Shown piece by piece: positions 1,045-44,710 of a stretch of 64,000 bases of DNA; position 1 is the first letter of the stretch, and each line of letters begins with the position of its first letter. A program made the translations under genes and the position numbers. Below the pieces are notes generated by a model. That model was not told the origin of the DNA. It worked only from the letters and a program-made list of their open reading frames with translations, and did not search any database. The stretch is from Dulcicalothrix desertica PCC 7102 (GTDB lineage Bacteria; Cyanobacteriota; Cyanobacteriia; Cyanobacteriales; Nostocaceae), in assembly GCF_003991905.1 (NCBI RefSeq), contig NZ_RSCL01000018.1:62001-126000 (forward strand). Reading direction: 5' to 3'.

Positions 1045-1830
1045 CTAGGTAGGTGAGGCTAATTTAGTACAAAAATATATATTTTCATCTGCGATCAAGC
1101 CGTATTTTTTAGATTTCTCAACTCCCAATTCTTGTGCGTAATTGTCAATTTTTACAGCAAACCCAGCTTTTTCTAATTTCTCTTTATAGTCAAGACCATA
1201 CATTCTCACATGGTCATGATGCCCAAAGAGACGCTCTCTTTCCTCAGATGACAAGTCACTAGAGCCTTCAAGCGTTTGAGCCAAATTATTGTCAAGGGGT
1301 ACATGCAAAATCGCCCATCCACCTGGTTTTAAGACTCGGCATAATTCTGACATTGCTTGCCAATCATTTGGAATATGTTCTAGAACATGACTGCACAGGA
1401 TTACATCAAATACATTATCTGGATATTGAATATTTGTAACATCCATTTGTACCATTGCTTGTTTAAGTTGCAAGTCAGCACTCAAATAATCAATATTAGC
1501 CAGATTTGCAATAGCTTTCTCAAGTAAGTATTCTGGCGCCACATGAAGAACTTTTAAATTTTCTCTAAGTAAATTGGTTTTATTTTTTATATAAAGCCAT
1601 AACAAACGATGTCTCTCTAAAGATAAACATCTTGGACATATAGCATTATCTCGCTTTTGCGCGCCAAATGGTAAAAACGTTTGGAAATCTTTTCCACAAC
1701 AAGGACAAAAAACTTTATCACCTGCATACCATAGCGCCCGCAGTATAAGAAAAGGTGTTCCCATTTTAAATAATAAAGAACGTCTTTCTAAAAGATACTG
1801 ATAGATTTTGAGAAAAAGAGACCGTTTCAT
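1045..1830 (-). CDS. Class I SAM-dependent methyltransferase with N-terminal zinc-ribbon-like cysteines
   Basis: 261 aa. A Methyltransf_11-type Rossmann domain is visible from about residue 90: motif I region LKVLHVAPE, acidic strand-2 YLSADL, a VILCSHVLEHI segment and RVLKPGGWAILHVPL. Upstream, Cys42/44/45 (CPCCG) and Cys65/68 (CPRC) look like a zinc ribbon. The substrate is unknown. It is the last gene of a run of envelope genes (adaptor, TPR protein, GT39, flippase-like protein) on the same strand, 28 bp behind its neighbour, so methylation of a sugar or lipid-linked glycan is a reasonable inference. The glycine-rich SAM loop is replaced by HVAPE. Confidence 0.8.
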   Translation of the reverse strand: MKRSLFLKIYQYLLERRSLLFKMGTPFLILRALWYAGDKVFCPCCGKDFQTFLPFGAQKRDNAICPRCLSLERHRLLWLYIKNKTNLLRENLKVLHVAPEYLLEKAIANLANIDYLSADLQLKQAMVQMDVTNIQYPDNVFDVILCSHVLEHIPNDWQAMSELCRVLKPGGWAILHVPLDNNLAQTLEGSSDLSSEERERLFGHHDHVRMYGLDYKEKLEKAGFAVKIDNYAQELGVEKSKKYGLIADENIYFCTKLASPT

Positions 1831-1858: not shown

Positions 1859-2836
1859 TTATTTGCTAGAATTATCTGCTTGTTTAATATGCTGTAATCC
1901 AGAAGAATCTAAGAGCAATATGATTCCGCCAGGTAGAGATAAAAACCAACTTAGCATTGTTATAGTTACAGATAACAATAATGCTTGCTCTACAGCTAAA
2001 TCAATTCGGCTGAACAGGTAAACCCATAATCCTTCTTTTAGTCCAAGTCCACCTAAAGAAATCGGCAGTAAAGTAATAACTGAAATTATAGGAATAAAAA
2101 CTAAAAGTTCCAAGTAAGAAATAGGGATTTTTAACTGAGTAGCTACCAAATAATGGTAGTAGACGACAGCGAGCATTAATAGGAATGATAGCAAAACTGA
2201 TATAATTAAAGCTCTACGATCTTTTGCAAAATGCCTTAAAATAATTTGAATTTTACTGAAGCGCACGGCTACACTTCTCAAACCAAATTTATTTAGCGAT
2301 GGCTCTACTATGATTAATAACTGAGGGCTAACAATTAAAATCACTCCTCCAACTAAGGCGCCGACACAACCGAAAAATATCAGAATTACATCCCAACGCC
2401 CCACTACTCTAATTGCAGCAGGTAAACCCAATACAGCTAAAGCAGACAAAGCAAAAAGTCCTGTCAATCTCTCTAAAAATACAGATACAAGTGCTGCTTC
2501 TGAGTCATGAGTTTCTTTGGTAATTCGATAAATACGATATATATCTCCACCAAAAGAACCAGGAAGAAATATATTTAAAAACATTCCAGCAAAATAACTA
2601 CTGAGTAGACTGTTTATTGATATATACTTACCAGTAGAACGAATAATTACTTGCCAGCGTAAGCAACTTAACCATTGACAAATCGTATAGTAAATTAGGG
2701 CAAAAGTAACAAAGGGTAAAGAAAGAGACTGAAATTGTTGCCAAGTTTTAGAAATATCTATATTAGTGAAAAGAATGGCTAAAATTCCTATACTAATAAA
2801 TATTTTTAAAACTACAATCGGCTTAATTTTCATCAT
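1859..2836 (-). CDS. Lysylphosphatidylglycerol synthase TM region/UPF0104-like membrane protein
   Basis: 325 aa, almost entirely hydrophobic with roughly eight membrane helices. The motif set FLPGSFGGDIYRIYRI (about residue 90) and LPISLGGLGLKEG (about residue 255) is characteristic of the UPF0104/AglD/MprF N-terminal flippase-like family. Such proteins accompany glycosyltransferases and are thought to move lipid-linked intermediates across the membrane. The ATG at 2834-2836 directly abuts the stop of the upstream GT39 gene, so the two are probably co-translated. No catalytic C-terminal MprF domain is present, so it is not a lysyl-PG synthase. Confidence 0.75.
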   Translation of the reverse strand: MMKIKPIVVLKIFISIGILAILFTNIDISKTWQQFQSLSLPFVTFALIYYTICQWLSCLRWQVIIRSTGKYISINSLLSSYFAGMFLNIFLPGSFGGDIYRIYRITKETHDSEAALVSVFLERLTGLFALSALAVLGLPAAIRVVGRWDVILIFFGCVGALVGGVILIVSPQLLIIVEPSLNKFGLRSVAVRFSKIQIILRHFAKDRRALIISVLLSFLLMLAVVYYHYLVATQLKIPISYLELLVFIPIISVITLLPISLGGLGLKEGLWVYLFSRIDLAVEQALLLSVTITMLSWFLSLPGGIILLLDSSGLQHIKQADNSSK

Positions 2837-5800
2837 TTAATAAGCTCCTAAATCTTTCCCATTATTGGGTATGCGATTTGGTAATCCATTTTCTGGTTGC
2901 CATAGTCGTAGACGAGTACCAAAACTGTCTATTACTGGCTGACCTAAGCTTTCCATATATTGCCAAGTATCAGGACTAAATCTACCTTCTCTAGTATCTT
3001 CTAAATGAATCCATACACGTTTTGATTTTTCAAATATACGATTAACTTGGTCTATATTAGTAACTACTACTGCCCCAGCCCAACGGTCAATCAACTTCCC
3101 TTGATGCCAATAAATTGCATCAAAATAACCAGTACCCATCAAAAAGTAGTCTAATTTACCTAAGCTAACTACTGCTAAAGACGGTAAAGGTGAAATAACT
3201 ACATCCTCTGTTTGTTTATGATTAATAAGATATTCAAAAACCTGTATATTGCGCCTATTAATAGACTCCTGATAGGCAGCTAATACTCTGGATGGTTCTA
3301 AGTTTATAACTATTATTATAATAGCAAAACTCAAGGCTATGGCTCGTATATTTATCAAATTGTCAAGCAATTGTTGTATTTTATTGCCTTGGCTTTCTGC
3401 TATATCTATCGCACTATAAATCGCAATTAAAACAAACAATGGATAAACAGAGTAAACATAACGTTCTGCTAAATTATAACATAAAATAGTTACAATCATG
3501 ACTTGAATAATTACAGTAATAGACCAAAACAATAATTTAGTATTTCTAGTTTTTAGAAAATAAATACAACCAATGAAAAAGAACAATGTATAAATTATTT
3601 GCATTCGGTCAGAACCAGATAAAAAATTTGCAAAAAGGTCGGTTATATCAGAAAAATGCAGTTTAAGGTAAGCAGATGTACTGTCAGATATTGCTGCTAA
3701 AGGAGTTAAAAGTCGGATATAAGAAAAGGCAAGGCAATATATAAAGACTGATAGAGTTATTACAGTACCGACTACAATTTGCCATTCTTTGAATAATTGA
3801 AATGGACGATAGAAGTATAAAAAGCCAATAATAAATGCTGGTAGTATAGTTAAACTAATTTCTTGAGTTAGTAAAGTTAAAGTGAGAGAAACAAAAAATA
3901 TGTATTGATAAAGCTTGCCCGATTTTTCAATAAAACTTTTAAAGAATGACCACAAAGATAGAATAGTCAAGCATTGCAGAACTTGGTAAAAGCGAATATT
4001 ACGCGAATACCAAAGCTCCCAAGGATTTATAGCTAAAATTAATGTTACAAATAGAGCAATCCATACTTTTCCGGTGAGTTTACGAGCAAAGATATAAACT
4101 ACAATTAAGGTTGCTGTACCCCAGAGTACAGACAGAAACCTCGCATTTACCGCCGAATCTCCAACTAAACGTAACCATAAAGCTAACAGATATTGATAAA
4201 AAGGACCTCTTGTATACCAAATACCTGAAGTCGATATTGGGGCGCCTGTGCGAAGAATACCCCTAGCTGCATCTAGGGAAGTATTTTCATCAGCATCTAA
4301 GTCAACAGTGTCGAGATTATAAGCCCTTAGTGCGAAACCAATGCTAACAATAAAGGCTAATAAAACCCATTGCCCAGATGATTGTAATACCGTTGGAAGT
4401 ACAGTAAATGTATCTTTAATTTGTTGCTGCCCTTTCACGCATAACCTAGTAGAACCGATAATTACAGTGGCAACAAGCAAAGTTAAAATAACATTTCCTC
4501 CTGCAACTAAAGCATTGCCAGTAACGACAACTACTCCAAAGAAAAACCATAAACTCCTACGAGGTAGTTTTCCTAATATGTTCCTAATTTGACTCAATAA
4601 CAGAGTTAGCAGAAAAATAGTTGTAAACCCAATCAAGATTAGATAATTGCTTTGTGGTTGAGCAAATAGCAATCCGGATTCTGCTTCTGCATAGCGATGT
4701 TTGAGCAGAGCAATACCAATTAAAAATAAAGTTCCAGGTGTAAGTATTGCCGCCCCTACACTTAAAGTATCACACCAACTTGTTTCACGACCGAACCACA
4801 AGCCTAAATAGAAAGCATAAAGTAAAGCACAGACAACTCCTGCTAATTGCCAAAGACTGAGATGCCATAAGTACTTTGGGTAATTGAGTAAATAGGCATT
4901 GCCCTCAAAGTTACGACGAAACTGTTCTGTATCAGGTAGACCCATGAGAGTTACAGTTTGCCCTTCACCCACTCCTTTTTCCCAATTAGAAGTTAAGTGG
5001 TTAAAGCTTCTCCAAGTACTATCGCTTGCAATGCTAGTAACAATCTCTGCTTTATCCGTTTCTGCCCATCCATCTAACAGCCAATCAACCGAACCGTTTG
5101 AGTAAACTTGGTTGTTACCTGCTCTTGCCGCTTCTAAAGGACTAGCCAAACTTACGGCTAGTATATTATTGCCAGGTCGTAAAAGCTTTGTTACTTCTAA
5201 TAAATGTAACTGCTGACCGCTTTCTGTCCTGTAATCATTTACTAAAGTACCATTTAGTAAAACTGAATACTGCCCTCTACCAGCAAATCGAATGTAAGCA
5301 TGAGAAATTGGGGTTTGTGGGAGAAACCATATTCCTCTCAGCCATACTTGACCTTTTTGACTTGGAGTCCCTGTAATCCAGTTTCCTGCTAAAGGGCGGT
5401 CAAATAGATTCTTACTCAATCGGCTATAAGTAGCTTCTTGAATAGGACTAAGTATTTTAGCTTGTGCCCAACCAGCATCAGGAAAACCCACGTCATTCCA
5501 TTGTACTGCTCGACGGGTTTCTGACAAATTTGAGACTCGCCAATCTGTTACTCCCGTTGTTAAATTAATCGGAGCTACATCAGCGACAGGGTAAACAACA
5601 CCCTCAGCGACTACGCGCGGATTTTGCTTTCCCTTTTGAATTTCTAGCGCGATAACATTTTTACCTGGACGTAAGAACGAAGTCAGGTCTACATAAGCTG
5701 TTAATTTCCAATCGTTGGAACTAGCTAGTAAATAATTTACTGAAGTTTTGACACGATAACGATTACTATCATTAAAATCTTGAAATGGTATTCTAACACC

Positions 5801-6112
5801 ACCAGCTAAACCAAGAGAATTATTCAGCACGCTATTTTCCCGCGCGATCTGGCGCCCATTTACATATAAAGTAAAATCATTATCAGCACTTATTCGCAGC
5901 CAACCTGCCGAGGCTTTATCAGGTAAATAAAACGTGTGACGCGCGTAAAAACGGTAAGTTGGTGATTGTGGAGCAATCCATTGAGCTTCAGGTGCCCAAG
6001 CAACACGTTCAACAGGGCTAGGTGTTTTTTCCCAAATCGAAAACCCCAACATTCCAAGTAAAAGTCCGAGAGTAACAATTAGCCCGAATGGCAACCAACT
6101 AGACCGTTTCAT
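2837..6112 (-). CDS. GT39/ArnT-like membrane glycosyltransferase with two N-terminal jelly-roll modules
   Basis: 1091 aa. One membrane helix (residues ~11-29) is followed by two repeated beta-rich modules, ~45-170 and ~245-370, each with a sequence of the kind DFTLYVNGRQIA / YSVLLNGTLVN and a LRPGKNVIALE / LRPGNNILAVS turn. These resemble the galactose-binding-like or rhamnosidase N-terminal fold. From ~410 the chain is polytopic; the GT39 core shows DTVDLDADENTSLDAARG and RGPFYQYLLALWLRLVG, matching the acidic loop and first-helix signature of ArnT/PMT-type enzymes that use polyprenyl-phosphate sugars. It lies 6 bp after the TPR gene and abuts the flippase-like gene. The fusion with two extracytoplasmic lectin-like modules is unusual; acceptor recognition is inferred. 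Confidence 0.75.
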   Translation of the reverse strand: MKRSSWLPFGLIVTLGLLLGMLGFSIWEKTPSPVERVAWAPEAQWIAPQSPTYRFYARHTFYLPDKASAGWLRISADNDFTLYVNGRQIARENSVLNNSLGLAGGVRIPFQDFNDSNRYRVKTSVNYLLASSNDWKLTAYVDLTSFLRPGKNVIALEIQKGKQNPRVVAEGVVYPVADVAPINLTTGVTDWRVSNLSETRRAVQWNDVGFPDAGWAQAKILSPIQEATYSRLSKNLFDRPLAGNWITGTPSQKGQVWLRGIWFLPQTPISHAYIRFAGRGQYSVLLNGTLVNDYRTESGQQLHLLEVTKLLRPGNNILAVSLASPLEAARAGNNQVYSNGSVDWLLDGWAETDKAEIVTSIASDSTWRSFNHLTSNWEKGVGEGQTVTLMGLPDTEQFRRNFEGNAYLLNYPKYLWHLSLWQLAGVVCALLYAFYLGLWFGRETSWCDTLSVGAAILTPGTLFLIGIALLKHRYAEAESGLLFAQPQSNYLILIGFTTIFLLTLLLSQIRNILGKLPRRSLWFFFGVVVVTGNALVAGGNVILTLLVATVIIGSTRLCVKGQQQIKDTFTVLPTVLQSSGQWVLLAFIVSIGFALRAYNLDTVDLDADENTSLDAARGILRTGAPISTSGIWYTRGPFYQYLLALWLRLVGDSAVNARFLSVLWGTATLIVVYIFARKLTGKVWIALFVTLILAINPWELWYSRNIRFYQVLQCLTILSLWSFFKSFIEKSGKLYQYIFFVSLTLTLLTQEISLTILPAFIIGFLYFYRPFQLFKEWQIVVGTVITLSVFIYCLAFSYIRLLTPLAAISDSTSAYLKLHFSDITDLFANFLSGSDRMQIIYTLFFFIGCIYFLKTRNTKLLFWSITVIIQVMIVTILCYNLAERYVYSVYPLFVLIAIYSAIDIAESQGNKIQQLLDNLINIRAIALSFAIIIIVINLEPSRVLAAYQESINRRNIQVFEYLINHKQTEDVVISPLPSLAVVSLGKLDYFLMGTGYFDAIYWHQGKLIDRWAGAVVVTNIDQVNRIFEKSKRVWIHLEDTREGRFSPDTWQYMESLGQPVIDSFGTRLRLWQPENGLPNRIPNNGKDLGAY

Positions 6113-6118
6113 CTTTAA

Positions 6119-7498
6119 TTAGTCCACTGAAGATTTTTTCCAAGTACTGCTATCTACCGATTGGCGGTATCTTTCCCAAGTTTTATCTGCATCGCCATTA
6201 TCATATTCAGCCCAAGCGATATGTAAATAAGCTTGTCCAAGTAAACCAATTCTTGGTTCTTGAAAATATTTCTGTCCTTCGATGATTTTTTTAGCAATAT
6301 CAGCTGATTTTTTAAATTCACCATTTATAACTCTAGCCAGCATCAAATCATAAAGCCCTTCGATATGTCCGGGAAAAACTATTAATGCCTTTTCAAACAA
6401 ATCTACTGCGGCTCCAGGCTTTCTATTACCAGGGCTATTTAAATACTCTACACCTTGATTCAAAATTGAGGATGCTAAATACCCTCGAACTAAAAATCTA
6501 CTTTTATCAATATCCAAAGCTTTTTTAAAGTAATTTTCTGCTTCTTGAAAACTACTATTTTTATAATTTTCTAAACCCTGAACAAAATTAATCAAAGCTG
6601 GTTCTACTTTATCGGCATAATACTCGGCTCTAGCCAAACGCTCTAGAAATGCTTCATCACCTTGTAAAGAAGGGTACAACGATGCCAAAATTTTACTATT
6701 GGCAACGACTTTTGAATACTTGCCTATACTATATTGAACGTCTATTTGATAGTTAAAGATATTTACGTAAATTAGAAAAAATATTATGAGACTAACTAAA
6801 AAGCCAGCGCACATTAAGAATATTTTTAAATCTGTAGTTGAACTATTAATGTTTTTATTATTGTTTGCTAAAAATATTCCAATTAAACTAATAGATATAC
6901 CAATTAAAGTGTACATCCAGCCTTTACCAATGAAGGCAAAAAACCTATTATTATAGCCAAAACCGTCAAGTACAATTTTATCCCAAGATGGCAATTGAAA
7001 AAAACGGCTGTCTAAGATTGATATTTCAAAAGTTGATGGTGGTACTTCTGGTTTATCTAAATATATATTCTGTTTCCAACGCGCTTGTACCTCTGAAAAG
7101 TTATTATCCACGTGAGCCGATACATTTTCTACTTGTTTGTAGTAAGCAGATGCAATAAATTTAACTTGTGGATTCCAAGTATTAACAAAAAAAGGAAACA
7201 ACATTACTATTATTAAAGACGCTAAAAATCTTTTTCTTGGAAGTGCACGTTCAACAGTCCAGAAAGTTAAACTAAAAACTTGAATTGCTAAGATTCCTGC
7301 AAGTAATTCTCCAATTTTATAAAAATTAATATTGGTTCCAAAAGTTTCTAAAGCCTTGTTTGGCAATTGATACCAAGCATTAGTCGCTCCTAATGTTAAA
7401 ACTAAGGCGCCAATAAAAAGGACTATTCTCTCTCGAATGAACCAATCTTGCCAAGAGCGAAAGTTTTTTCCATTAAATAAAGCGTTAATTAAAAACAT
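6119..7498 (-). CDS. TPR-containing polytopic membrane protein
   Basis: 459 aa. Hydrophobic segments are visible at about residues 28-45, 62-85, 95-112, 197-215 and 228-250, with an extracytoplasmic stretch between the third and fourth. The C-terminal half (~285-450) is helical with TPR features such as NYFKKALDIDKSRFLVRGYL and AVDLFEKALIVFPGHIEGLYDL. The start ATG overlaps the last base of the upstream HlyD-family stop (TAATG), which implies translational coupling. A scaffold for the adaptor or for the polysaccharide machinery is inferred; there is no enzymatic motif. Confidence 0.7.
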   Translation of the reverse strand: MFLINALFNGKNFRSWQDWFIRERIVLFIGALVLTLGATNAWYQLPNKALETFGTNINFYKIGELLAGILAIQVFSLTFWTVERALPRKRFLASLIIVMLFPFFVNTWNPQVKFIASAYYKQVENVSAHVDNNFSEVQARWKQNIYLDKPEVPPSTFEISILDSRFFQLPSWDKIVLDGFGYNNRFFAFIGKGWMYTLIGISISLIGIFLANNNKNINSSTTDLKIFLMCAGFLVSLIIFFLIYVNIFNYQIDVQYSIGKYSKVVANSKILASLYPSLQGDEAFLERLARAEYYADKVEPALINFVQGLENYKNSSFQEAENYFKKALDIDKSRFLVRGYLASSILNQGVEYLNSPGNRKPGAAVDLFEKALIVFPGHIEGLYDLMLARVINGEFKKSADIAKKIIEGQKYFQEPRIGLLGQAYLHIAWAEYDNGDADKTWERYRQSVDSSTWKKSSVD

Positions 7499-9018
7499 TA
7501 TTTATCCTCAGCAATCGGTACTTGTACAGATTCAGGAGTAATACTATCGCCGGGATTCAAAGCTCTAGCATTAAGAACGACCCGTTCTCCTGGTTTTAAA
7601 CCAACTAATACCTCACGTTTATTACCAAATGTTCTACCAAACTTAACTTTCCTGATAACTGCTTTACCATCAAGAGCAACCATTACCATACCTTCACCTG
7701 CAGACAAATGTGTAACGGCACTTTCTGGAATTGTTAAAGCAGTCTTACCTTTCTGAAACTGCACGTAACCTTGTAATCCTGGAGGCATTTTCAAATCATT
7801 AACAGCAATCCAAACTGAGTATGTGTATTGCCTATCAATTCCTGCTTTTCCTTTAATAGTCTGATTTTCGACAGTAGGATTAAGTTGGATAACCTGCCCT
7901 CTAAAACTCTGTCCTGGGTATGCTACTAAGCGAACTGTAGCCATATCGCCTATTTTCACGGCGCCAAGTCGTGCTTGGTCGATGTAAGCTTTAAATACTG
8001 TATTCTGAGTCAGAGTTAATAGAGGGTCACGACTGCGCGCGTCTGCAACTTCTCCACTGTGGATATTGACTCGACTTACTAAGCCATCTGTACTAGCATA
8101 TACAACCGTGCGAGTCAAATCTCTTAACGCTTGTTGCAATTCTATTCTTCTATTTTCAAGCGTAAGGCGAGCATTCGCCAAATCTCGATCTAAATTGGCC
8201 TGAGCAAGTTCGAGTTGCTGTTGAGCGGAAATCAATTCGTTGCGGCGCTGAATATAGAAATCTTGGTTGCCAAATTGCTGACTCTGAGTGCCAATTATTC
8301 CTTGTTGAGCAGCCAGAAGCTCTCGTTTGCGAGTCGCATAAATATCTTCCATGTCATAGCGCTGAAATTTGGAAATAGCTCCTTGCTGTTCTAAAAACTG
8401 AATTTGTTTGAGCTTTTGCTGTGCTGTCTGTAACCTGACTTCTGCCGCTACAACATTGTTTTGAATTTCTTTTTCGGCTAAAGAGTCAATTTTTGCCAGT
8501 CTAGTTTCAGCAAAATTTAGCCTAGCCAGTGATGCGGTAAGGTTATTTCTTAAGTTCTTCAATCTATCTGGTACTGTACTTTGCAACGCTTTCAAATTTT
8601 TTTCAGCAGCAGCAAGGTTATTGCTAGCAGTATTAACTTGGTCTTGAAAAGGCGCCCGCTGCAACTCAAGCAAAGGTTGACCCCGACGCACAAGTTGCCC
8701 TTCTGCTGCATAAACTTTTTGTACAAGACCCGATACCAAAGAACGAACATCAACCTGTTGCATTGCAACAGATTCACCTGGCGCTCCAACATTACTTTCT
8801 AAACTTGTTGCTGCCACTGTCACAGTATCAACTTGAATTGCTTTACCTGCCATACGTTGCAAAGCAGGATAGCCAAACCCAGAAGAGTAAAACCTAGATT
8901 GGGGGTCGCTGAGAGTTGGTAAAAGTACCTTTACCGAAAGAATTCCTATTAAACCAATGGGAGCTATCACCAAACTAAGTAAAATACTGCGCGAGAGAAG
9001 TTTACGGGATTGAATCAT
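7498..9018 (-). CDS. HlyD/RND-type periplasmic adaptor (membrane fusion) protein
   Basis: 506 aa. An N-terminal signal anchor (~10-32) is followed by a split biotinyl-lipoyl domain (VSGLVQKVYAAEGQLVRRGQ around residue 95), a long coiled coil (~125-300, rich in Gln, Leu and Arg), the second half of the lipoyl domain and a beta-barrel region (VRLVAYPGQSFRGQV). This is the standard layout of adaptors linking an inner-membrane pump to an outer-membrane channel. No pump or TolC homologue is adjacent; instead it heads an operon of glycan genes, so it may serve polysaccharide export. The 126-bp shared upstream block lies about 195-320 bp before its ATG. Confidence 0.85.
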   Translation of the reverse strand: MIQSRKLLSRSILLSLVIAPIGLIGILSVKVLLPTLSDPQSRFYSSGFGYPALQRMAGKAIQVDTVTVAATSLESNVGAPGESVAMQQVDVRSLVSGLVQKVYAAEGQLVRRGQPLLELQRAPFQDQVNTASNNLAAAEKNLKALQSTVPDRLKNLRNNLTASLARLNFAETRLAKIDSLAEKEIQNNVVAAEVRLQTAQQKLKQIQFLEQQGAISKFQRYDMEDIYATRKRELLAAQQGIIGTQSQQFGNQDFYIQRRNELISAQQQLELAQANLDRDLANARLTLENRRIELQQALRDLTRTVVYASTDGLVSRVNIHSGEVADARSRDPLLTLTQNTVFKAYIDQARLGAVKIGDMATVRLVAYPGQSFRGQVIQLNPTVENQTIKGKAGIDRQYTYSVWIAVNDLKMPPGLQGYVQFQKGKTALTIPESAVTHLSAGEGMVMVALDGKAVIRKVKFGRTFGNKREVLVGLKPGERVVLNARALNPGDSITPESVQVPIAEDK

Positions 9019-9385
9019 AAAATTCCTGTAAAAGAAGTATTAAGAAGAATTCAAAAGGCTCTGTAGAGAACTCAGTAGATTCGCCACTCCCAAGGGCTAC
9101 ATTTATATATAGCATTCCTAAATAATTCCTAGAAATTTATAATAAAATCATAACAAGCGAAAAAGAATGCAACAAGTTTTTCAAATTATATAAGAGCGCT
9201 AGAAAAATTGATTCAAATACAAATTTAAATGTTCATCACTCAAAGTCCATCTGTGTAAATACTTAAATTTATTACAATTATATTAAGAAAATGTTTGATT
9301 TGTTTGACTTTAAATAAAAACATATAAAACAAACAATTGTTAAATTAAATTTTTAGATAAAAAAATAATTTACCTTAAATGCTTA
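9019..9385. promoter_or_regulatory. AT-rich upstream region of the HlyD-TPR-GT39 operon
   Basis: No gene is seen here. It separates the HlyD start (9018) from the stop of the upstream glycosyltransferase (9386). It contains the first copy of the duplicated 126-bp block, listed separately, and is otherwise very AT-rich without a convincing terminator hairpin. Confidence 0.5.
9213..9338 (-). promoter_or_regulatory. Copy A of a duplicated 126-bp upstream block
   Basis: This block matches 34674-34799 over its whole length, roughly three quarters identical by eye, with identical ends and equal length. The core 9238-9267 differs from 34700-34729 at one of 30 bases. Read in the direction of transcription (minus strand) it has a direct repeat TCAAACAAATCAAACA (9292-9307), then an AT-rich stretch with a TATAAT-like hexamer, then the core containing TATTTACACAGATGG. 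A promoter with an activator site is inferred; the shared sequence itself is directly visible. Confidence 0.6.
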
Positions 9386-10612
9386 TTAAATAGCTCTTTC
9401 TGACCCTTTACCAGCCAAACCAGTATTCAAAGCTGTTGTAAAAACTTGCTGCCACAGGGGTACAATTCGTGCCCAGCTAAATCTAACTTGAACATCTGCC
9501 AAACCTGCTCGCCCAATTTCAAGAGCTTGATTTGGATTGACGAGCAAAGTCAAAATCGCTTCTGCCAAAGCTAATGGGTTCTTTTCTTGTACTAGCAAAC
9601 CCGTCTTTCCTGATTGAATCACATCTACAATTCCGCCCACCGCACTAGCAATTACTGGCTTTTGATGAGCTAAAGCTTCTATCATCACAATTCCCAATCC
9701 TTCGGTATCACCCTTGCTATCAACAATCGCAGGTAATACAAAAATATTGCAAGATGCATATTCCGATGCTAATTCTTCCTTGCTGACAAAACCTAAGAAT
9801 TTAACTACATTATTCAAATTCAATGCATCACACTGCGAGCGAATTTCTTGTTCAAGAAGTCCTTTACCAACAATCCGCAAATTTACTGTTTGTTTTGCTA
9901 AAACTAATGGTAGAGCCTCTAACAAATATCGTAGTCCTTTACGTTCATCGAGCCTTCCTACAAACAAAAGTACAGGTTCATGACCGAATGGTCTACTTAG
10001 TGGTGGTTTAGCTTCAATTGTCAAACCATATGGAATAATACTAACTTCACCATTATAAAGCTTGCTTAAGAGCGCACGAGTAAACGAAGAATTAGCTGTT
10101 ACAACCTTAGCCATTGGCAACATCCACCGCAGAATATGCGCGACAAAACCGAATTTGTTTGCTAGCATCAACTCGGCGCCGTGGAAACTAAATATCATCG
10201 GAATACCGAGTAAAATACTTGCGGGTAAAGCCATCAACCCATGTGGAAAGGGCCAGTGAATCTGGAGTACATCAGGCTTTTGTTTACAGCACACCCAAAA
10301 TAATTGAATTGTGCCTAGCAAAATATATAAAGCAGCAACTACTATATATAGAGGTTGCCTTTGCAATTTAGTCGGGGCACCATCGCGCGCTAGATTTTCA
10401 AATTTTTTTAAACAATAGCGAAAGCGATGAACTTGAACGCCATCTAATACATGACTTTTAGAAGCTTCATAAGCAGGAGCAAAGACTGTAAACTTAGTGA
10501 TTGTTGGCTGTAAGCGCACAATTGCCTCACGTATAAAGGCGCCATGATTAGCGTCAGTCGTCTCTGGGTAGACTGATGTCACAACTAGAATATGTTTTCT
10601 TTCCAGATTCAT
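9386..10612 (-). CDS. Glycosyltransferase family 4 (group 1)
   Basis: 408 aa, full length for a GT-B glycosyltransferase. The N-terminal domain starts with HILVVTSVYPETTDANHGAF (the acceptor-side signature); the C-terminal domain has VLLFVGRLDERKGLRYLLEA and the nucleotide-sugar site EGLGIVMIEALAHQKPVIAS with the two spaced Glu residues. It transfers a sugar from a nucleotide donor at the cytoplasmic face of the membrane. It precedes the HlyD operon on the same strand but is separated by 367 bp holding a probable promoter, so it may be its own unit. Acceptor unknown. Confidence 0.88.
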   Translation of the reverse strand: MNLERKHILVVTSVYPETTDANHGAFIREAIVRLQPTITKFTVFAPAYEASKSHVLDGVQVHRFRYCLKKFENLARDGAPTKLQRQPLYIVVAALYILLGTIQLFWVCCKQKPDVLQIHWPFPHGLMALPASILLGIPMIFSFHGAELMLANKFGFVAHILRWMLPMAKVVTANSSFTRALLSKLYNGEVSIIPYGLTIEAKPPLSRPFGHEPVLLFVGRLDERKGLRYLLEALPLVLAKQTVNLRIVGKGLLEQEIRSQCDALNLNNVVKFLGFVSKEELASEYASCNIFVLPAIVDSKGDTEGLGIVMIEALAHQKPVIASAVGGIVDVIQSGKTGLLVQEKNPLALAEAILTLLVNPNQALEIGRAGLADVQVRFSWARIVPLWQQVFTTALNTGLAGKGSERAI

Positions 10613-13115: not shown

Positions 13116-13856
13116 TTAAATATTATCTTCTAAAAATAATAAATTGTCTAGCATCAGCACCATATGCTGTACTGAAGATTGAATGCGATTTAAATGAAAC
13201 ATAGCTTTTTCTTCAGTCCAATCTTTACCGTATTTTTCAAGTAGTTCGGTTGAACTTAAAATAGTAGTTAAAGGAGTTCTAAATTCGTGAGAAGTAATAT
13301 TAATAAAATTGGATATCATTTCTCGAAGCTTTGCTTGTTCTTTACTACTTGAGTCATGTTTTTCTTCAAGTAACTTATCATCTGTCATATCAACACAGAC
13401 GCATAAAGTATAATTTTTAAAATTTTTAAATTCTATTATATACCTAGTAATTTCAAAAGAACGTGTTCCTTTTGTAGGCAACACTAAAAATTCTTGCGTA
13501 ATTAATACCGATTCTTTTTTGAGTTGTGATAAACTTGACATATCAAGCTCATTAAATCCTAAAATATCATTTTTTTGACCAAGAATTTTTTCAATAGATG
13601 TATTATAAATTTGAACAACAGCTTGATTGACTAAGACAAATCTATTGTCTGAATCGTGAATAAAAATTAGGTTAGGGCTAGTATCTATGATTTGACGTAA
13701 TAATTTTTTTTCTTGCATTAACTGCTCTTTCAACGTTTTATATTTAATCTCTAATTTATTAAACTTATCTTTTTCTTCCATAAATCTATCATGCATTTGG
13801 TGTAATTCAGTTTGTAATTGCCTTATTAGTGTTTCTAATTGTTCTTGGTATAACAT
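13116..13856 (-). CDS. PAS-HisKA protein lacking the ATPase domain (truncated histidine kinase)
   Basis: 246 aa. A predicted coiled coil (~1-50) leads into a PAS domain (~50-160, LIFIHDSDNRFVLVNQAV) and a HisKA helix with the phospho-acceptor His in [17 protein letters not shown] (~residue 192). The chain stops at MLDNLLFLEDNI, where the HATPase_c domain would normally begin; no N, G1 or G2 box is present. It could be phosphorylated in trans by a neighbouring kinase or act as a dominant partner, or it may be a remnant. It lies 38 bp after the next kinase of the same strand. Confidence 0.8.
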   Translation of the reverse strand: MLYQEQLETLIRQLQTELHQMHDRFMEEKDKFNKLEIKYKTLKEQLMQEKKLLRQIIDTSPNLIFIHDSDNRFVLVNQAVVQIYNTSIEKILGQKNDILGFNELDMSSLSQLKKESVLITQEFLVLPTKGTRSFEITRYIIEFKNFKNYTLCVCVDMTDDKLLEEKHDSSSKEQAKLREMISNFINITSHEFRTPLTTILSSTELLEKYGKDWTEEKAMFHLNRIQSSVQHMVLMLDNLLFLEDNI

Positions 13857-13894
13857 AATCTCATTTTTTAATTGTAAAGTATGAAATATGATGG

Positions 13895-15004
13895 TTATAT
13901 TCGAGGAAGTTTGACAAAAAAAGTTGTACCCTTATTAATATGAGTAACAAAGTCAATTGTACCTTTGTGTAAATCTACACATTGTTTCACAATTGTAAGT
14001 CCCAAGCCAGTACCAGATATTTGACTGACATTAGTCCCACGTTGAAATGGCTCAAACAAGTGGTTATGCAATTCTTCTGGAATTCCCAGACCTTGGTCTT
14101 GAACTTGGAAACAAATAAAATCAGTTTCCCAAATTAGTACCAACGAAACCAAAGAAGAAGCACCCGAATATTTAATAGCATTAGATAGTAAATTATCAAG
14201 TAGATGCCATAGTAAGTGTTTATCTAGGTTAGCAAGGCGCCCTTCACCGTGAACAGTAAATTCTATAGTGTACTGTTGATTAATAGTCATTTGCAGTGAT
14301 TCAAGGATTTCTTCACAAAAAGCGATTACATCAATCAAACAAGGGTTATATGTAAGTTTTCCAGATTGAGTTCTACCTAAAATTAAGATGTCTTCTAATA
14401 ATCCAATTAAACTGTCAGTAGCTGTTTCAATGCGTTGAAGATGCTTGTGCTTTTTATCCTCATAACCATTATATGCTTTGAGGATTTCCGCACCAAGTTT
14501 AATTGTAGTTAAAGGATTGCGGAGCTCGTGTGCTGCCATACAAATATATTGAGATTGTTCCTGGATTCGCAATTCAGCAACCTTTTTATCGGCTTTAGCT
14601 AAAAATAATGCATTCTTGATATCTATTTCTGCTTGATGACGAGAAAGAGCAATGTCAATTGTGGTTGAAAGTGTTTTTTCGTCAAAAGGTTTTGATATAT
14701 AACCAAAAGGTTGTGACGTTTTCACACGCTCAAGCGTCGCTTGGTCTGCGTTGGCAGTAAGGTAAACTACAGGAATGTCAAATAGCGATTTAATCTGCAT
14801 CGATGCTTCAATCCCATCCATTTTGCCTTCGAGACGAATGTCCATTAGTACTAAATTTGGCTTTTTGACTTCAGCTTGGAGGATTGCTTCTTCTCCCGAC
14901 GCAACTAAATTAGAGACTGAGTAACCTAAAAACTCTAGCGTTTCACGTAAGTCATCAGCAACTAGCTGTTCATCCTCTACTATTAATATATAGATAGAAT
15001 TCAT
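13895..15004 (-). CDS. Response regulator-histidine kinase (REC-HisKA-HATPase)
   Basis: 369 aa. The N-terminal receiver domain (1-120) has the acidic pair VEDEQ, phospho-acceptor Asp in NLVLMDIRLEG and Lys in YISKPFDE. A HisKA domain follows with His in MAAHELRNPLTTI (~residue 160) and a complete HATPase_c (LLDNLLSNAIKY, DQGLGIPEE, GTGLGLTIVKQ). This receiver-first order is common in cyanobacteria for intermediate kinases that receive phosphate from another kinase before acting. It is 4 bp downstream of the HisKA_2 kinase, so they are co-transcribed. Confidence 0.92.
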   Translation of the reverse strand: MNSIYILIVEDEQLVADDLRETLEFLGYSVSNLVASGEEAILQAEVKKPNLVLMDIRLEGKMDGIEASMQIKSLFDIPVVYLTANADQATLERVKTSQPFGYISKPFDEKTLSTTIDIALSRHQAEIDIKNALFLAKADKKVAELRIQEQSQYICMAAHELRNPLTTIKLGAEILKAYNGYEDKKHKHLQRIETATDSLIGLLEDILILGRTQSGKLTYNPCLIDVIAFCEEILESLQMTINQQYTIEFTVHGEGRLANLDKHLLWHLLDNLLSNAIKYSGASSLVSLVLIWETDFICFQVQDQGLGIPEELHNHLFEPFQRGTNVSQISGTGLGLTIVKQCVDLHKGTIDFVTHINKGTTFFVKLPRI

Positions 15005-15008
15005 AGGT

Positions 15009-16184
15009 TTACTTAAATTTTTCTAGTGTAGGAAAGTTTATATGGAATACTGCACCGCAATCACGTTTGAGCGAGATTTTGCCCTTCAGTTGCCTCGTCA
15101 AGTTATGCACTATTCTCAACCCAAGCGAGTTTGTACTTTGCCAATCAAAATTTTCATCGATCCCAATGCCATTATCACCAACTGTAAGCTTAAAACCATT
15201 TTTGCTATCTTGCTGAAGATAAATAATAATTTTTCCGTGAATTTTATCGTACTGCTGATTTGAAAAAGCATACTTTAGGGAGTTAGAAACAAGCTCATTA
15301 ATTATCAACCCACAAGGGATTGCTGTATCAAGGCAAAGCTTAAGAGCATTTGTTTCAATATCTAGTTGAATAAATCGCTGACTAACTCCGTAGCTGCGGA
15401 ACAGATTATCTGTGAGACTGCGAATATAATCACCAAAATTGATTTGAGATAAATCTGAAGCTTGGTACAAATGTTCATGAATTAACGCCATAGACTGTAC
15501 GCGGTTTTGAGATTCTTGAAATAAAATAAGAGTTGTTTCATCAAGAGGGCGCCGCGACTGCATACGCAGAAGACTAGAAATGATTTGCAGATTGTTTTTA
15601 ACACGATGATGAATTTCTTTGAGTAAAGTTTCTTTTTCTTCGAGTGAACGCCGAATTTTAGCTTCGCTTTGCCGCAGTTCGTTTTCAACTCGCATTCTTT
15701 CTGTAATTTCACTCCGTAATAGGGCGTTTGCCTGTTCTAGGTCAATAGTTCGCTGTTGTACATTGTGTTGCTGTTGCTCAATTTGTCGCATTAACCGTAC
15801 TCGTTCCATTACAGTATTGCAAGCTCGGTTTAATGCTTCGCAAGTTAATCGATTTTTAACCAAATAATCTTGCGCTCCATTCTTCATCACCTGAACTGCA
15901 ATTGTCTCGTCTCCCAGCGCAGATAATACGACTACTGGCATGTAAGTTATACAACTTTTATGCTTGAGTTCTTCTAAAAAACTAATTACAGTCGCATCTG
16001 GTAATATAAAATCCACTAATATCAAATCTGGTGTTTGTGTTTGGCAGTAAATAAGTGTTTGAGTTGCTGTTTCCAATTCAATAATATTGTTAGTATATAA
16101 AGAATTTCTTTCAAGGTAATGACGATATAAGTTTCGTTCTTCTGCTGATTTATTTACTATCAGAATAGTGTATTGTGTTTGCAT
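15009..16184 (-). CDS. Response regulator-histidine kinase of the HisKA_2 type
   Basis: 391 aa. Receiver domain 1-125 (Asp in PDLILVDFILPD, Lys in DYLVKNRL), coiled coil ~130-185, then a HisKA_2/HWE-like dimerisation domain with LLKEIHHRVKNNLQIISSLL (phospho-acceptor in HHRVKNNL). The ATPase domain has NELVSNSLKYAF and DNGIGIDENFDWQ and ends in SLGLRIVHNLTRQLKG. This kinase class differs from the HisKA proteins around it. It is the first gene of a three-gene run with 15004 and 13856; the 287-bp gap upstream contains a perfect palindrome. Confidence 0.9.
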   Translation of the reverse strand: MQTQYTILIVNKSAEERNLYRHYLERNSLYTNNIIELETATQTLIYCQTQTPDLILVDFILPDATVISFLEELKHKSCITYMPVVVLSALGDETIAVQVMKNGAQDYLVKNRLTCEALNRACNTVMERVRLMRQIEQQQHNVQQRTIDLEQANALLRSEITERMRVENELRQSEAKIRRSLEEKETLLKEIHHRVKNNLQIISSLLRMQSRRPLDETTLILFQESQNRVQSMALIHEHLYQASDLSQINFGDYIRSLTDNLFRSYGVSQRFIQLDIETNALKLCLDTAIPCGLIINELVSNSLKYAFSNQQYDKIHGKIIIYLQQDSKNGFKLTVGDNGIGIDENFDWQSTNSLGLRIVHNLTRQLKGKISLKRDCGAVFHINFPTLEKFK

Positions 16185-16398
16185 AAAACTTGCGATATCT
16201 TTAAGTATTTACAAGCTTTGAAAAAGTGCCAATGTTAGTTAGCTGCAAATAGGCTCTCTTATATTATTGCCTGTACTACTACTAAAATGAGTAGGGTATT
16301 ATTACTAAAAGTAAAATAAATAATATGAGCGTAACAACGTAAATTTACGGGAATATAGATGGGTATATATAAATTGCCATGTTAATTCCCAAACACTC

Positions 16399-16426
16399 GT
16401 AGAGACGTTACATGTAACGTCTCTAC
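16399..16426. repeat. Perfect 28-bp palindrome of the GTAGAGACG family
   Basis: The two halves GTAGAGACGTTACA and TGTAACGTCTCTAC are exact complements with no loop. The GTAGAGACG...CGTCTCTAC ends recur at 39850-39883, and partly at 25488-25508 and 48126-48135. It lies between two kinase genes transcribed the same way and has no T-run. Confidence 0.8.
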
Positions 16427-16471
16427 ATATCATGTGTTCTGAAATATTTAGATTTTATTGACATTAAAATT

Positions 16472-17539
16472 TTATAGTTCTATAGTAAATATTGTTCCTT
16501 GAGGTTGGTTATCTTGTATAAAAATTTGACCTTGATGAGCATTAATAGCAAGTTTACAAAATGCTAAACCCAAACCTGTTTGAGAAATTCCTTTAACAAC
16601 TTGACCAATTTCAAATTTATCAAATATACGCTGTTTCAAGTTATCACTAACACCTTTCCCTTGGTCAATAACTTTTATTCTAGCTTGAATATTCTCAGGA
16701 TACTCAACACAAAGCTTTACTAAGCTGTTTGCAGGAGAAAATTTAATTGCGTTTGAGACTAAATTGTCAAGTACTCTACGTATAACTTGTTTATCTATGT
16801 ATACTTTTTTCGTTAAAGGTGCAACGTCATTAATTATTTGAATTTTTCTAGATTCAGCTAAAAAGTTAAAATCTTCTAACACAGATTCAATAATTTCTCC
16901 AAGTATTACCTCTTCAGGTTCAATAACCATTTTATCAGATTCTAACTTTGCCATTATTAATAAACTATCTGTTAACAATTGCAGTTGTTTAGCTGAATTT
17001 TCCATTAATTGTAAATGCTTCTCTTTTCGAGATTCATTCTTGCCAAAACGTAAAATTTCACAACCTAAAAGAATTGATACAAGATGATTAGAAAAATCAT
17101 GGAAAATCATATTCCCCATATCTTCTCGCAATTGCAAGCTATTTTGCAGCGCATCATACTGATGTTTAATTCTTAACATGGAATTAACTCTAGCTCTAAG
17201 TTCAACACCACTGACAGGTTTGCTAATAAAATCATCTGCTCCTGCTTCTAAGCACTGAGCTAAATCTTCTTTTGTATTGAGTGCTGTCACCATCACAATT
17301 GGTATATAGCCCAGTTGCCGATTTGCTCGAATTCGACGGCAAACCTCAATTCCATTAACTTCTGGCATCATGACATCAAGCAGAACTGCATCAACTTTAT
17401 TTTTTTCTATAAAATCAAGCGCAATATCACAATTTTGAGCAAAATGTAAAGTATAACCTTCTTTAAAAAGTAAAATTTCAATAACATCAAAATTTTGTTC
17501 CTCGTCATCAACAACCAAAATTATCGTATTACTTTTCAT
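16472..17539 (-). CDS. Response regulator-histidine kinase with atypical H-box
   Basis: 355 aa. Receiver 1-125 (VVDDEEQNFDV, Asp in AVLLDVMMPEVNG, Lys in FISKPVSG). The dimerisation helix carries HDFSNHLVSILLG (~residue 150) in place of the usual HELRTPL. The HATPase_c domain is complete (VLDNLVSNAIKFS, DQGKGVSDN, QTGLGLAFCKLAI). The ATG overlaps the upstream stop by four bases (ATGA at 17536-17539), so it is translationally coupled to the CBS-PAS hybrid kinase and is probably its phosphotransfer partner. Confidence 0.9.
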   Translation of the reverse strand: MKSNTIILVVDDEEQNFDVIEILLFKEGYTLHFAQNCDIALDFIEKNKVDAVLLDVMMPEVNGIEVCRRIRANRQLGYIPIVMVTALNTKEDLAQCLEAGADDFISKPVSGVELRARVNSMLRIKHQYDALQNSLQLREDMGNMIFHDFSNHLVSILLGCEILRFGKNESRKEKHLQLMENSAKQLQLLTDSLLIMAKLESDKMVIEPEEVILGEIIESVLEDFNFLAESRKIQIINDVAPLTKKVYIDKQVIRRVLDNLVSNAIKFSPANSLVKLCVEYPENIQARIKVIDQGKGVSDNLKQRIFDKFEIGQVVKGISQTGLGLAFCKLAINAHQGQIFIQDNQPQGTIFTIEL

Positions 17540-19557
17540 GGTTTTTGATTCCTAGTTAATAACTTTTGGATTACCGAGTTTAGGTATTTCAGGCTAACTG
17601 GTTTCAGAATAAACTCATCGGCGCCAGCTTCAATACATTTGTTTTTACCCTCAGACAATGCAGTTAAAGCAATTATTGGGGTTTGTGAAAGATCAGGTAC
17701 TTCACGCATACGTCCAATTGCAGCCAAACCATCAAGTTTTGGCATTTGCACATCTATAACAATTAGCTGAGGATTCTGCTCTATGGCAAATTCAACAGCT
17801 TCTAATCCATCACGTGCAATAGTAAATTGATAACCACATACTGTTAAAAATTCGCAAATTAACTCAGCATTAGTAATATTATCATCTGCTACTAAAATTA
17901 AGGGTTTATTTATACTATTATAATTACTATTCTCTTCTGTTAATATAAATGATTTTATAGATTGGTAAGTAGATTGATGTGTAAAATCAGAATAATTTAA
18001 CTGTGGAGCAGTAATCAGTGGTAGTGTACAAGTAAAGCAACTTCCCTTACCAACTTCACTAGAAACTGTAACATTACCTCCATGCATATCTATAATTTTT
18101 TTAACTAGAGCCAATCCCAACCCAGTACCTGAATAGCTGCGGGACAATGAAGCATCAATCTGTACAAATGGTTGAAACAATTTATTAAAATTTTTAGCAT
18201 CAATCCCAATACCAGTATCAAAAACTCGAAAGTAAATTTTCTTTGCTTCTTTATCAACATTGACGACAAGTTCAACAGTTCCGCCATTTGCCGTAAATTT
18301 AATACCATTACTCAATAGGTTTATTAAAACCTGACGTATACGAAGTGCATCAATCCATACTTTATCTATAGTAGGAGCAATTGTAAACGTTAGTGTTATA
18401 TTTTTTTTACATGCAAGTTGTTTAACAAAAGGACAAATAGAATTACACAGAGTATTGATATCTACTAAACTTTTATCTAGTTTCAAATCACCAGACTCAA
18501 TTTTTGTCAAATCGAGAATATCGTTAATTAAATCTAAAAGGTTTTGTCCGCAATTTTGAATATTTGATATTGCTTTTTTTTGTTTTTCAACTAATGGTGC
18601 ATAAACTTCATCAATTAAACCTTCTGATAAACCTAAAATGGCATTTAAAGGTGTGCGTAACTCGTGACCCATATTCGCCAAAAATTCATCTTTCATACGA
18701 GTCGCACAAGCTAGCTCCGAATTTATTTTGCCTAGTTTACTCAAAGCTGTCTCTAAACGTCTACGGTTACTTATGTCTCGTACAGCAATTATAGCAAATT
18801 TTCTATAGTTATAATTAACTACTGTCCCCCTAACTTCACCATCAAAAGCGCTACCATCTTTATGTAAACCAGTAGCTTCGATGAAAGATTCACAGCCAAG
18901 TTCCAGTGTCTTAAAAAAATTTTCGAGAACATAATGTGAGTTTTGATGTATGTACTTACTTATACAAGCTTTTAACAACTCTTCATATGTGAAACCGTGC
19001 ATTTTGCAAGCAGAAGAATTTGCTTCAACTAAAAGTCCTGCCTCTAAATCATATATAAATACGCCATCGCTGACAGTTTCAATAATTCTTCGCATCATGC
19101 CAATGCTACTTTCTTGTTCGAGAAGAGTATTTTTCAAAGCTGGAATAATATTTGCCTTAGTTATTATCCCCTCTACATCACCATTCTGGGATAGTACGAT
19201 TAAACTATCTAACTGGTTATCAAACTTATCTAATATATAGTCAATACTTTTAATTTGTGAGCGCATTAGCGTTACCAACGGTTGAGTTAACGCATCTGCA
19301 ACTCTAACAAATTCTATCTTTTTCCCTGCTGCTATCTGTCTGACTATATCTCCACTTGTTAATACTCCTATGGGAATCGAATTTTCTACGACTACAGCAT
19401 TTAAAATGTGGCTTTGTTCTGTCTTACCTTGACATACTAGGGTAATTGCTTCTGCAACAGATACATTAGGGGCTACTAGAGGGCAAACTTCAATTACCTC
19501 ATCCAAAACTGACGACAGGTAATTAAATGATTTTGCCGACAAAAATTGAGAGCGCAT
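17536..19557 (-). CDS. CBS-PAS hybrid histidine kinase with C-terminal receiver
   Basis: About 673 aa from the preferred ATG at 19557; a start at 19647 in the same frame would add 30 residues of basic sequence. Order: paired CBS domains (first ~170 residues, PIGVLTSGDIVRQIA), PAS domain with GVFIYDLEAGLLVEANSSAC, coiled coil, HisKA (FLANMGHELRTPLNAIL), HATPase_c (VLINLLSNGIKFT, DTGIGIDAKN, GTGLGLALVKKI) and receiver (PQLIVIDVQMPKLDG, FILKPVSLK). CBS pairs usually bind adenine nucleotides, so energy status is a possible input. Neither start has a clear Shine-Dalgarno sequence. Confidence 0.9.
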   Translation of the reverse strand: MRSQFLSAKSFNYLSSVLDEVIEVCPLVAPNVSVAEAITLVCQGKTEQSHILNAVVVENSIPIGVLTSGDIVRQIAAGKKIEFVRVADALTQPLVTLMRSQIKSIDYILDKFDNQLDSLIVLSQNGDVEGIITKANIIPALKNTLLEQESSIGMMRRIIETVSDGVFIYDLEAGLLVEANSSACKMHGFTYEELLKACISKYIHQNSHYVLENFFKTLELGCESFIEATGLHKDGSAFDGEVRGTVVNYNYRKFAIIAVRDISNRRRLETALSKLGKINSELACATRMKDEFLANMGHELRTPLNAILGLSEGLIDEVYAPLVEKQKKAISNIQNCGQNLLDLINDILDLTKIESGDLKLDKSLVDINTLCNSICPFVKQLACKKNITLTFTIAPTIDKVWIDALRIRQVLINLLSNGIKFTANGGTVELVVNVDKEAKKIYFRVFDTGIGIDAKNFNKLFQPFVQIDASLSRSYSGTGLGLALVKKIIDMHGGNVTVSSEVGKGSCFTCTLPLITAPQLNYSDFTHQSTYQSIKSFILTEENSNYNSINKPLILVADDNITNAELICEFLTVCGYQFTIARDGLEAVEFAIEQNPQLIVIDVQMPKLDGLAAIGRMREVPDLSQTPIIALTALSEGKNKCIEAGADEFILKPVSLKYLNSVIQKLLTRNQKP

Positions 19558-19829
19558 TACAGTAAGGATAATTTTATGTAATTTGGTAATTATTGTAATC
19601 GCAATTTTATAGGATTTTCTGCCCCGCCAAACATATTTTTGTAACATTTCTCTTAATTATGCAAAAATTGCATTGATAACTTTCAAGTTTGTAATAATAT
19701 AAATTAAATGTAGCAATTTTGAATAAATATTTACTTTCTTCAATTAATTTGATTGTTTTGTACACTTTGTTTAATATGTAAAATATACAAATTAATAATT
19801 TATCTTTTACTGAAAATATTTTAACCTTG

Positions 19830-22580: not shown

Positions 22581-22698
22581 ACTGATTATTTGACTTGATA
22601 TCTAAATATAAATTAACTAATATAGGCGCTTATTTGGAGTATAGTAACAAAATTATTGTTACAGCTGTATCGGCGCCAATCTCGTTTAAATCATAACT

Positions 22699-25290: not shown

Positions 25291-25487
25291 CGGTTCTACT
25301 CTATAACTAATTTTTTTGACTATCAAAAATTCGTATATTTTATGGTTTCACTGACGGTAAAATTTGCAAGACATGGCGCATATTATAAAAACAAGCACAT
25401 GAATAAATAATGTATAAATCAAACTAATTGTTGTTCTTCCTTTTCATTTCCAAAATCTACTTTTTTATAGCTTCATAGGTTGTGTGG

Positions 25488-25508
25488 AGACGTAGCACTG
25501 CTACGTCT
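25488..25508. repeat. 10-bp inverted repeat AGACGTAGCA / TGCTACGTCT
   Basis: Perfect 10-bp arms around a single base, lying between the surface gene ending at 25540 and the next one starting at 25290 on the minus strand. It resembles the GTAGAGACG palindromes. It could fold in RNA and separate the two genes, but lacks a T-run. Confidence 0.6.
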
Positions 25509-25539
25509 TTGTCAAATCGTGGTGTATTTACCTTTCTTC

Positions 25540-31070: not shown

Positions 31071-31266
31071 TTTAATGTTCTCCTGTAAAATAGTACCTTT
31101 ATGATTAGCAAATGCACTTCATAAATAAACTATTTTTGTTAAATAGCTTCTAATTTTGTTTGTTAGGATTTGAATTTTTCATTTTCAAAATATATTTTCG
31201 TAAAAACAGCCATTGCCATCAATCTACGACAATGGCTGATATAAGGTGAGGAGAGAGCAGCAACCC

Positions 31267-31833: not shown

Positions 31834-31920
31834 AGAAAAAACCTTTTGAAGTTGGAAAAGACTTAATTGATTAAAAATTTGATTTTTCGGGCGGCTGAGG
31901 ACAGCCACCCCACAAGATGG

Positions 31921-44656: not shown

Positions 44657-44710
44657 AACCACCTGGCAACGGATTATAAACGGATGTAACGGATAGGTTA
44701 TTTTATTAAT

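Follow-up and report, generated by a model that had tools for sequence, protein, structure and literature searches.

A probable promoter element of Nostocales surface-structure genes and its copy ahead of an HlyD/glycan operon

Why should two gene sets of one filamentous cyanobacterium, one coding for surface proteins and the other for glycan export, be preceded by nearly the same intergenic sequence? The window analyzed here, a stretch of 64,000 nt (C18:62001-126000) of an 11.4-Mb Calothrix-type genome in 109 contigs, contains two such blocks, A and B. The answer that we favor, and consider quite probable, is that both are copies of a promoter of Nostocales surface structures, likely dependent on an activator, and that A was copied before the HlyD/glycan genes.

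9213-9338, minus strand: block A, putative promoter copy upstream of the HlyD gene (sequence reading, alignment)
34674-34799, minus strand: block B, putative promoter of the DUF7925/DUF11 surface-protein cluster (sequence reading, alignment)

Two related blocks in one window

Both 126-nt blocks are present with the ends given by the original prediction, and its shared 30-mer (9238-9267 and 34700-34729) and 16-nt repeat (9292-9307 and 34753-34768) were confirmed, each with one mismatch. Their equal length masks compensating indels, the alignment having 4 gap columns and 99 identical columns out of 124 aligned. The resemblance, which had been judged unlikely to be chance, is indeed far beyond it, with a local alignment score of 133 for the two intergenic regions against a maximum of 49 in 1000 dinucleotide shuffles, and it extends past the blocks (9205-9369 and 34666-34828) into an outer part that is AT-rich. 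The distances reported from the 30-mer to the start codons (220-249 versus 233-262 bp) are correct if the gene after B starts at ATG 34467; the mechanically listed ORF starts instead at TTG 34485. A search of the whole genome, as had been suggested, found the 24-nt core (up to 3 mismatches) at A and B alone, which rules out a frequent genome-wide repeat. In a sample of the order that covered 388 genomes without G001 to G004, the 19-mer with up to one mismatch occurred here and once in each of two others. The half motif TATTTATACTGAAGG (up to 2 mismatches, this genome) was uninformative as a stand-alone bait, giving 69 matches versus 61 for the reversed-pattern control.

The window also has repeats of other kinds. 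An array with a 52-bp period (six overlapping register copies) occupies 44656-45039, and parts of it are found inverted around 57033-57153. A dispersed type, TGTGGGRTGGGCATCCTTGCCCG, appears in both orientations (34870-34898, 49013-49041, 54391-54419, 57180-57208, and 61854-61882), and a long run of 15-nt repeats lies inside an ORF (61905-62963) that presumably codes for a pentapeptide-repeat protein.

A bipartite core with a likely -10 box

The core of the blocks is bipartite and consists of a 17-nt box followed, after 19-20 nt, by a TAN3T -10 box.

9247-9263, minus strand: conserved 17-nt box of A (AGTATTTACACAGATGG), putative activator site (motif fit, model R1)
9222-9227, minus strand: putative -10 box of A, TAAATT, 19 nt past the box (motif fit, conservation profile)
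34709-34725, minus strand: conserved 17-nt box of B (AGTATTTACACAGATGG) (motif fit, model R1)
34683-34688, minus strand: putative -10 box of B, TACATT, 20 nt past the box (motif fit, conservation profile)

The box consensus in the family is approximately CTTATTTATACKGAAGA, and the family form of the whole motif is this box, 19-20 nt, and TACATT. A TATAAT-like region had been proposed between the repeat and the core; it is not conserved in PCC 7716 (G002) or PCC 7103 (G004), two strains of the same genus, and the -10 box is likely the hexamer listed above, inside each block. Transcription would start ca. 7 nt past it, at predicted points near 9215 (A) and 34676 (B), and the leader would be ca. 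200 nt long. Of the 23 positions that make up the box and -10, 1 differs between the two blocks, compared to 24 of 101 in the remaining block (Fisher p 0.04). The proposal of an activated promoter common to the two gene sets is well supported, as far as sequence can tell, by the conservation and position of this element.

Upstream of the box, both blocks carry a direct repeat.

9292-9307, minus strand: direct repeat of A, TCAAACAAATCAAACA, also present in B, PCC 7716, and PCC 7103
34753-34768, minus strand: direct repeat TCAAACAAGTCAAACA of block B (sequence reading)

This TCAAACA repeat lies 27-28 nt from the box in A and B. It is retained in PCC 7716 and PCC 7103 and absent from Calothrix sp. 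C42_A2020_038 (C42, G001), also of the same genus, so it looks like a local addition. With up to one mismatch, it was found at 11 places in this genome (1 for the reversed-pattern control) and at 54 in seven genomes of the genus (19 for the control). Two of the 11 are A and B, and the four others inspected are all within ORFs, as are the inspected places beyond A, B, and the B orthologs in general, which gives the repeat no support as a general operator.

Conservation upstream of DUF7925 genes

The cluster behind block B begins with a gene for a DUF7925 surface protein.

31921-34485, minus strand: DUF7925 surface-protein gene, first downstream of B
19830-31908, minus strand: remaining cluster B, with DUF11 and SdrD_B proteins, a 1327-aa protein, and a CHASE3 histidine kinase

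A scan of named genomes gave 164 DUF7925 relatives among 206 stretches, from which the best 80 of 164 were retained. The two-box motif was fitted on 79 upstream regions (L114, with too short an upstream sequence, was left out) plus A and B, i.e., 81. A score of 12 was passed by 58 of them, A and B included, a count made on the same 81 regions on which the PWM was refined; the reversed, reverse-complement, and locally shuffled controls had 1, 0, and 1 above this score. The remaining 23 stayed below the threshold. The box starts 189-627 nt ahead of the estimated DUF7925 gene start. In a partly held-out test with 30 more distant regions, 21 exceeded a score of 8 (controls 0/30, 0/30, and 3/300) and 16 passed at 10, as none of the controls did; the separation is imperfect, the PWM coming from 32 sites in 51 training loci that had been chosen with the general PWM. 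With this held-out PWM, B reached 12.3 and A only 8.4, failing the threshold of 10.

Exact matches to the motif pattern were found in 7 of 192 genomes of the family (2 for the reversed-pattern control), 4 of them before DUF7925 genes, 2 within ORFs, and 1 unassigned. The 19-mer with up to 2 mismatches has matches in 15 of 41 genomes, this one included, and only here (A and B) and in G001, G002, and G004 are the flanks shared as well. In G001 and G002 (Calothrix sp. PCC 7716) the block precedes the DUF7925 ortholog, and no block was found in G003, G005, and G006, where the DUF7925 relatives are just 42-44% identical. The expectation that the block be kept upstream of the orthologous operons thus holds for B, in two further members of the genus and, for the core, far more widely, but not for A, since five HlyD orthologs elsewhere are without the motif.

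A different fate of the promoter is found in PCC 7103, where the DUF7925-DUF11 cluster is missing at the B locus. Promoter and leader (like window positions 34913-34559) run there into sequence like that from 22656 onward, upstream of the CHASE3 kinase; at the junction (L093, G004:C7:702001-722000, ca. 7326-7760), the promoter and ca. 120 nt of leader are joined to the CHASE3 histidine-kinase gene, which lacks a middle part (ca. residues 208-568) relative to the kinase of the window. Judging from these alignments, a deletion fused promoter B to the kinase operon. A second DUF7925 gene of this strain, at another locus and with 67% identity, has a motif of its own (L119). In the window, the surface cluster is followed by a run of six genes for histidine kinases and hybrid kinases, all in the same orientation (13116-22580), and Pfam shows no DNA-binding output domain in any of them.

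Other genes behind the same element

For a sequence-only model (R1) we used 51 distinct sites. Left out were A, B, and the corresponding B sites in PCC 7716 and C42, whereas the second DUF7925 promoter of PCC 7103 (L119) and promoters from further species of Calothrix were included. In the window, R1 ranks B first (34680-34733, 20.4 bits) and A second (9219-9271, 20.0 bits), the next match having 9.4 bits, and genome-wide the two blocks are third and fourth of 57 matches with E ≤10 (E 0.007 and 0.01). The strongest genomic match (C7:296634, 23.5 bits) is followed, 370 nt later, by a pilus-type (chaperone-usher-like) operon. Encoded in this operon are two short proteins that begin with a signal-like N-terminus and have no match in Pfam, a chaperone resembling PapD_N (E 3e-4, below the Pfam cut-off), and a 1192-aa protein that we tentatively call usher-like from its place, with no usher-family match. 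The 1327-aa protein of cluster B was considered as kin of the latter and gave no useful alignment.

In G002, G004, G005, and G006, and in other genera too (G015 and G042), the same site again precedes a like first gene that has the same divergent kinase gene beside it. The first gene aligns in G002, G004, and G015 at 33-45% identity; its recognition in G005, G006, and G042 relied on the N-terminus and the kinase neighbor, and the operon in G005, G006, G042, and G015 (past its first two genes) was called from gene starts plus that neighbor only. Between close strains (L207:3004-3573 versus L217 and L218) this gene is 42-45% identical, next to a near-identical promoter and leader. It probably changes fast and codes for an exposed protein.

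Strict R1 matches in 50 genomes (E ≤0.002, 23 in total) were divided into 9 before DUF7925 genes, 7 before the pilus-type gene, and 7 before other or no recognized genes. Some of the DUF7925 matches belong to the training set, whereas those of the pilus type do not. R1 matches before genes tentatively named as epimerase-like, radical-SAM-like (beside a PEP-mutase-like one), and response-regulator genes, among others, were rejected, their -10 box being weak or misplaced. We also used the divergent kinase gene, present in 106 of 120 genomes, as an anchor and scanned 30 of the kinase loci on the far side with a motif cut-off score of 13. The motif exceeded it at 13 of them, the maximum of three shuffles per locus being 12.2. 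Motifs were found at 6 of the 7 loci showing the pilus-type first gene and at 3 of the 4 with a PPC-domain protein (called by Pfam in L278, L279, and L285, and by its N-terminus in L284, with a motif score of 9.2), and also at L266, L269, L281, and L288, which were counted with an unassigned neighbor and of which L281 has a pilus-type gene start further on. None was found at the 7 loci with a MAKSKK-type neighbor or at the 8 with other or no listed neighbors.

Origin of block A

Block A lies between a glycosyltransferase gene and the first gene of the HlyD operon.

9386-10612, minus strand: glycosyltransferase (GT4) gene upstream of A
9123-9341, minus strand: 219-bp extra stretch relative to the GT4-HlyD gap of G051, holding the whole of block A (flank alignments; edges approximate)
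7498-9018, minus strand: HlyD family gene, first downstream of A
6119-7498, minus strand: TPR gene after HlyD
2837-6112, minus strand: PMT_2 gene
1859-2836, minus strand: LPG_synthase_TM gene
1045-1830, minus strand: methyltransferase gene

HlyD orthologs (E ≤1e-60, with at most 25 candidates scored per genome) were present in 5 of 59 other genomes and in none of six others of the genus, and none of these five loci has a motif above a score of 10. The distance from the end of the GT4 gene to the HlyD match is 26, 38, 42, and 176 nt in four of them and 935 nt in the fifth; here it is 367. The 176-nt gap is that of G051. Both of its flanks can be aligned to the gap in this genome, and between them lie 219 bp here versus 8 bp in G051 (a whole-gap MAFFT alignment misplaced the left flank, and a local alignment per flank was used instead). 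The A-B alignment passes the upper edge of the extra stretch by 28 nt, which are AT-rich. The 82 nt at its lower end have no likeness to leader B, and outside A the stretch was matched or exceeded by 718 of 1000 shuffles when compared with that leader. A loss in G051 could account for the difference; three further genomes, with gaps of 26-42 nt, speak for a gain here.

Block A aligns to the B copies with an identity of 0.80 in this genome, 0.81 in PCC 7716, 0.79 in PCC 7103, and 0.64 in C42, and the first three B copies agree among themselves at 0.93-0.96. Being about equally far from three near-alike copies, A would have been copied before the strains split or would have evolved faster; acquisition by transfer from another strain is possible. 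In the sequence of events that we propose, copy B would be the ancestral promoter of the DUF7925 cluster, a copy of it would have entered the gap between the glycosyltransferase gene and HlyD and become A, and the HlyD/glycan genes would thereby have been placed under the same control. The surface-protein, pilus-type, and, here, glycan-export genes would then probably be switched on together. The case for the HlyD operon under this promoter comes from one genome.

Alternative readings

A conserved leader RNA had been put forward as the other possibility, with the transcribed block serving as a structured 5' leader. Its distance from the start codons (200-330 nt) would agree with that, as would the near identity of the pilus-type leader over ca. 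400 nt within the genus and the similarity of leader B between this genome and PCC 7716, which equals that of the promoter itself (27-30 of 30 per step). The comparison with C42 argues the other way, with 24/30 and 23/30 identities around the box and -10, then 14/30 and 14/30, and later 9-19 of 30, while upstream of the box there are 17-18 of 30. Information content in the DUF7925 set drops to near background within a few nucleotides past the -10 box, which makes a promoter likelier than a leader RNA; in the pilus-type set, made up of more closely related sequences, conservation continues for some nucleotides more. Besides, the blocks end approximately at the predicted starts, the TAN3T box would fall within the RNA, and neither block matches Rfam at the gathering score. 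A leader RNA is therefore very improbable, and this part of the original prediction found no support. The window has two Rfam matches, both outside the blocks, a tRNA and a psbN 5'UTR (RF04353, 60586-60646, minus strand).

Even harder to credit is the idea of A and B as copies of a mobile or repeated element that has no function as a promoter: the presence of A in a stretch that is extra relative to G051 would suit such an element, but there are just two copies in 11.4 Mb and the core is retained before DUF7925 genes in many genera. We give more weight, although we still consider it unlikely, to block A being a relic without effect, a promoter that was copied while HlyD is expressed from elsewhere. 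Orthologous HlyD operons do manage without the motif, and A is known from one genome only. On the other hand, the scarcity of differences in box and -10, compared with the remaining block, points to continued use of A, and the single change gives TAAATT, the form found at most of the pilus-type loci examined.

A candidate activator and comparison with known systems

The preferred reading, a promoter with an activator, can be compared with known cases. The ACTGA half-site of the box is 22-23 nt from TAN3T. Cyanobacterial CRP-activated promoters have TAN3T ca. 22 bp downstream of the site (excerpts of PMC2633013), and NtcA promoters combine a site centered at ca. -41.5 with TAN3T, matching class II promoters (excerpts of PMC3898017). 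The spacing found here fits a class II activator promoter, in which a transcription factor bound to the box would probably recruit RNA polymerase. The right half, ACTGA, keeps 4-5 of its 5 bases in 64 of 73 sites, and the left half, TCAGT, in 15 of 73, with 3 or fewer in the other 58. At pilus-type loci, a palindrome CAGT-N6-ACTGA (degenerate in L265, L266, and L281) ends ca. 30 nt upstream of the box; it was not seen at A or B. This second occurrence of the half-site, as a palindrome, suggests a dimeric factor, possibly an activator of the CRP/FNR superfamily. The palindrome upstream of the pilus-type operon reads TACTCAGT-N6-ACTGAGTA (L207:2590-2611, likewise in G002, G004, G005, and G006), and its N6 center is GTTGTT in some strains and the reverse complement, AACAAC, in PCC 7103. 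By direct reading, A and B have neither the NtcA site GTA-N8-TAC nor the canonical CRP site TGTGA-N6-TCACA. HLR1, LexA, and OmpR-type sites appear to fit the 17-nt box poorly, and these readings were dropped.

The core might instead be read by an alternative sigma factor, with box and TAN3T as -35 and -10. Two conserved boxes at a fixed spacing would agree with this, but the 19-20 nt between box and hexamer exceed the usual gap of 16-18 nt, and the palindrome of the pilus-type loci fits a dimeric DNA-binding protein. Such factors drive hormogonium genes in Nostoc (excerpts of PMC6495340), but the J-Box GGGaAtacT is absent, with no GGG on the coding strand of either block by direct reading, and we consider a sigma factor distinctly unlikely. 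Consensus scans found no plain sigma-70 pair (TTGACA-/TATAAT-like, 16-18 nt spacing) in either block.

Tentatively, a single dimeric activator with TCAGT-N6-ACTGA-like sites may govern a small surface-structure regulon of Nostocales (DUF7925/DUF11, chaperone-usher-like pili, and PPC-domain proteins) that operons join or leave by whole-promoter copying or fusion, as with HlyD here and the kinase fusion in Calothrix PCC 7103. Several surface-structure gene sets of filamentous cyanobacteria are tied to one promoter sequence, with the 17-nt box as a bait for finding the regulator. Two rewirings can probably be traced, the whole promoter copied before a glycan-export operon and the deletion fusing it to a sensor-kinase operon. 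The motif with its target set was not found in print in a literature search (PMC6495340 without its supplement), and four 12-mers of the motif gave no cyanobacterial paper by title in a limited library.

The class of promoter is already known. Like the SigJ J-Box promoters of Nostoc punctiforme hormogonia (excerpts of PMC6495340, which mention a second, unexplained motif beside the J-Box), this is a promoter element common to a Nostocales gene set, albeit without GGGaAtacT. Class II CRP and NtcA promoters of cyanobacteria are alike in having a site of ca. 16 nt centered near -42, 22-23 nt before TAN3T (excerpts of PMC3898017 and PMC2633013), and differ in the half-site, which here is ACTGA, with a weak left half. 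A parallel by gene content can be drawn with the chaperone-usher-type genes cccS/cccP of Synechocystis, surface-appendage genes with a PapD-type chaperone that depend on the CRP-family regulator SyCRP1 (excerpts of PMC4390875, PMC4759255, and PMC2633013). The likeness is one of gene type, the binding sequence is another, and the motif described here is common to DUF7925 and PPC-domain protein genes.
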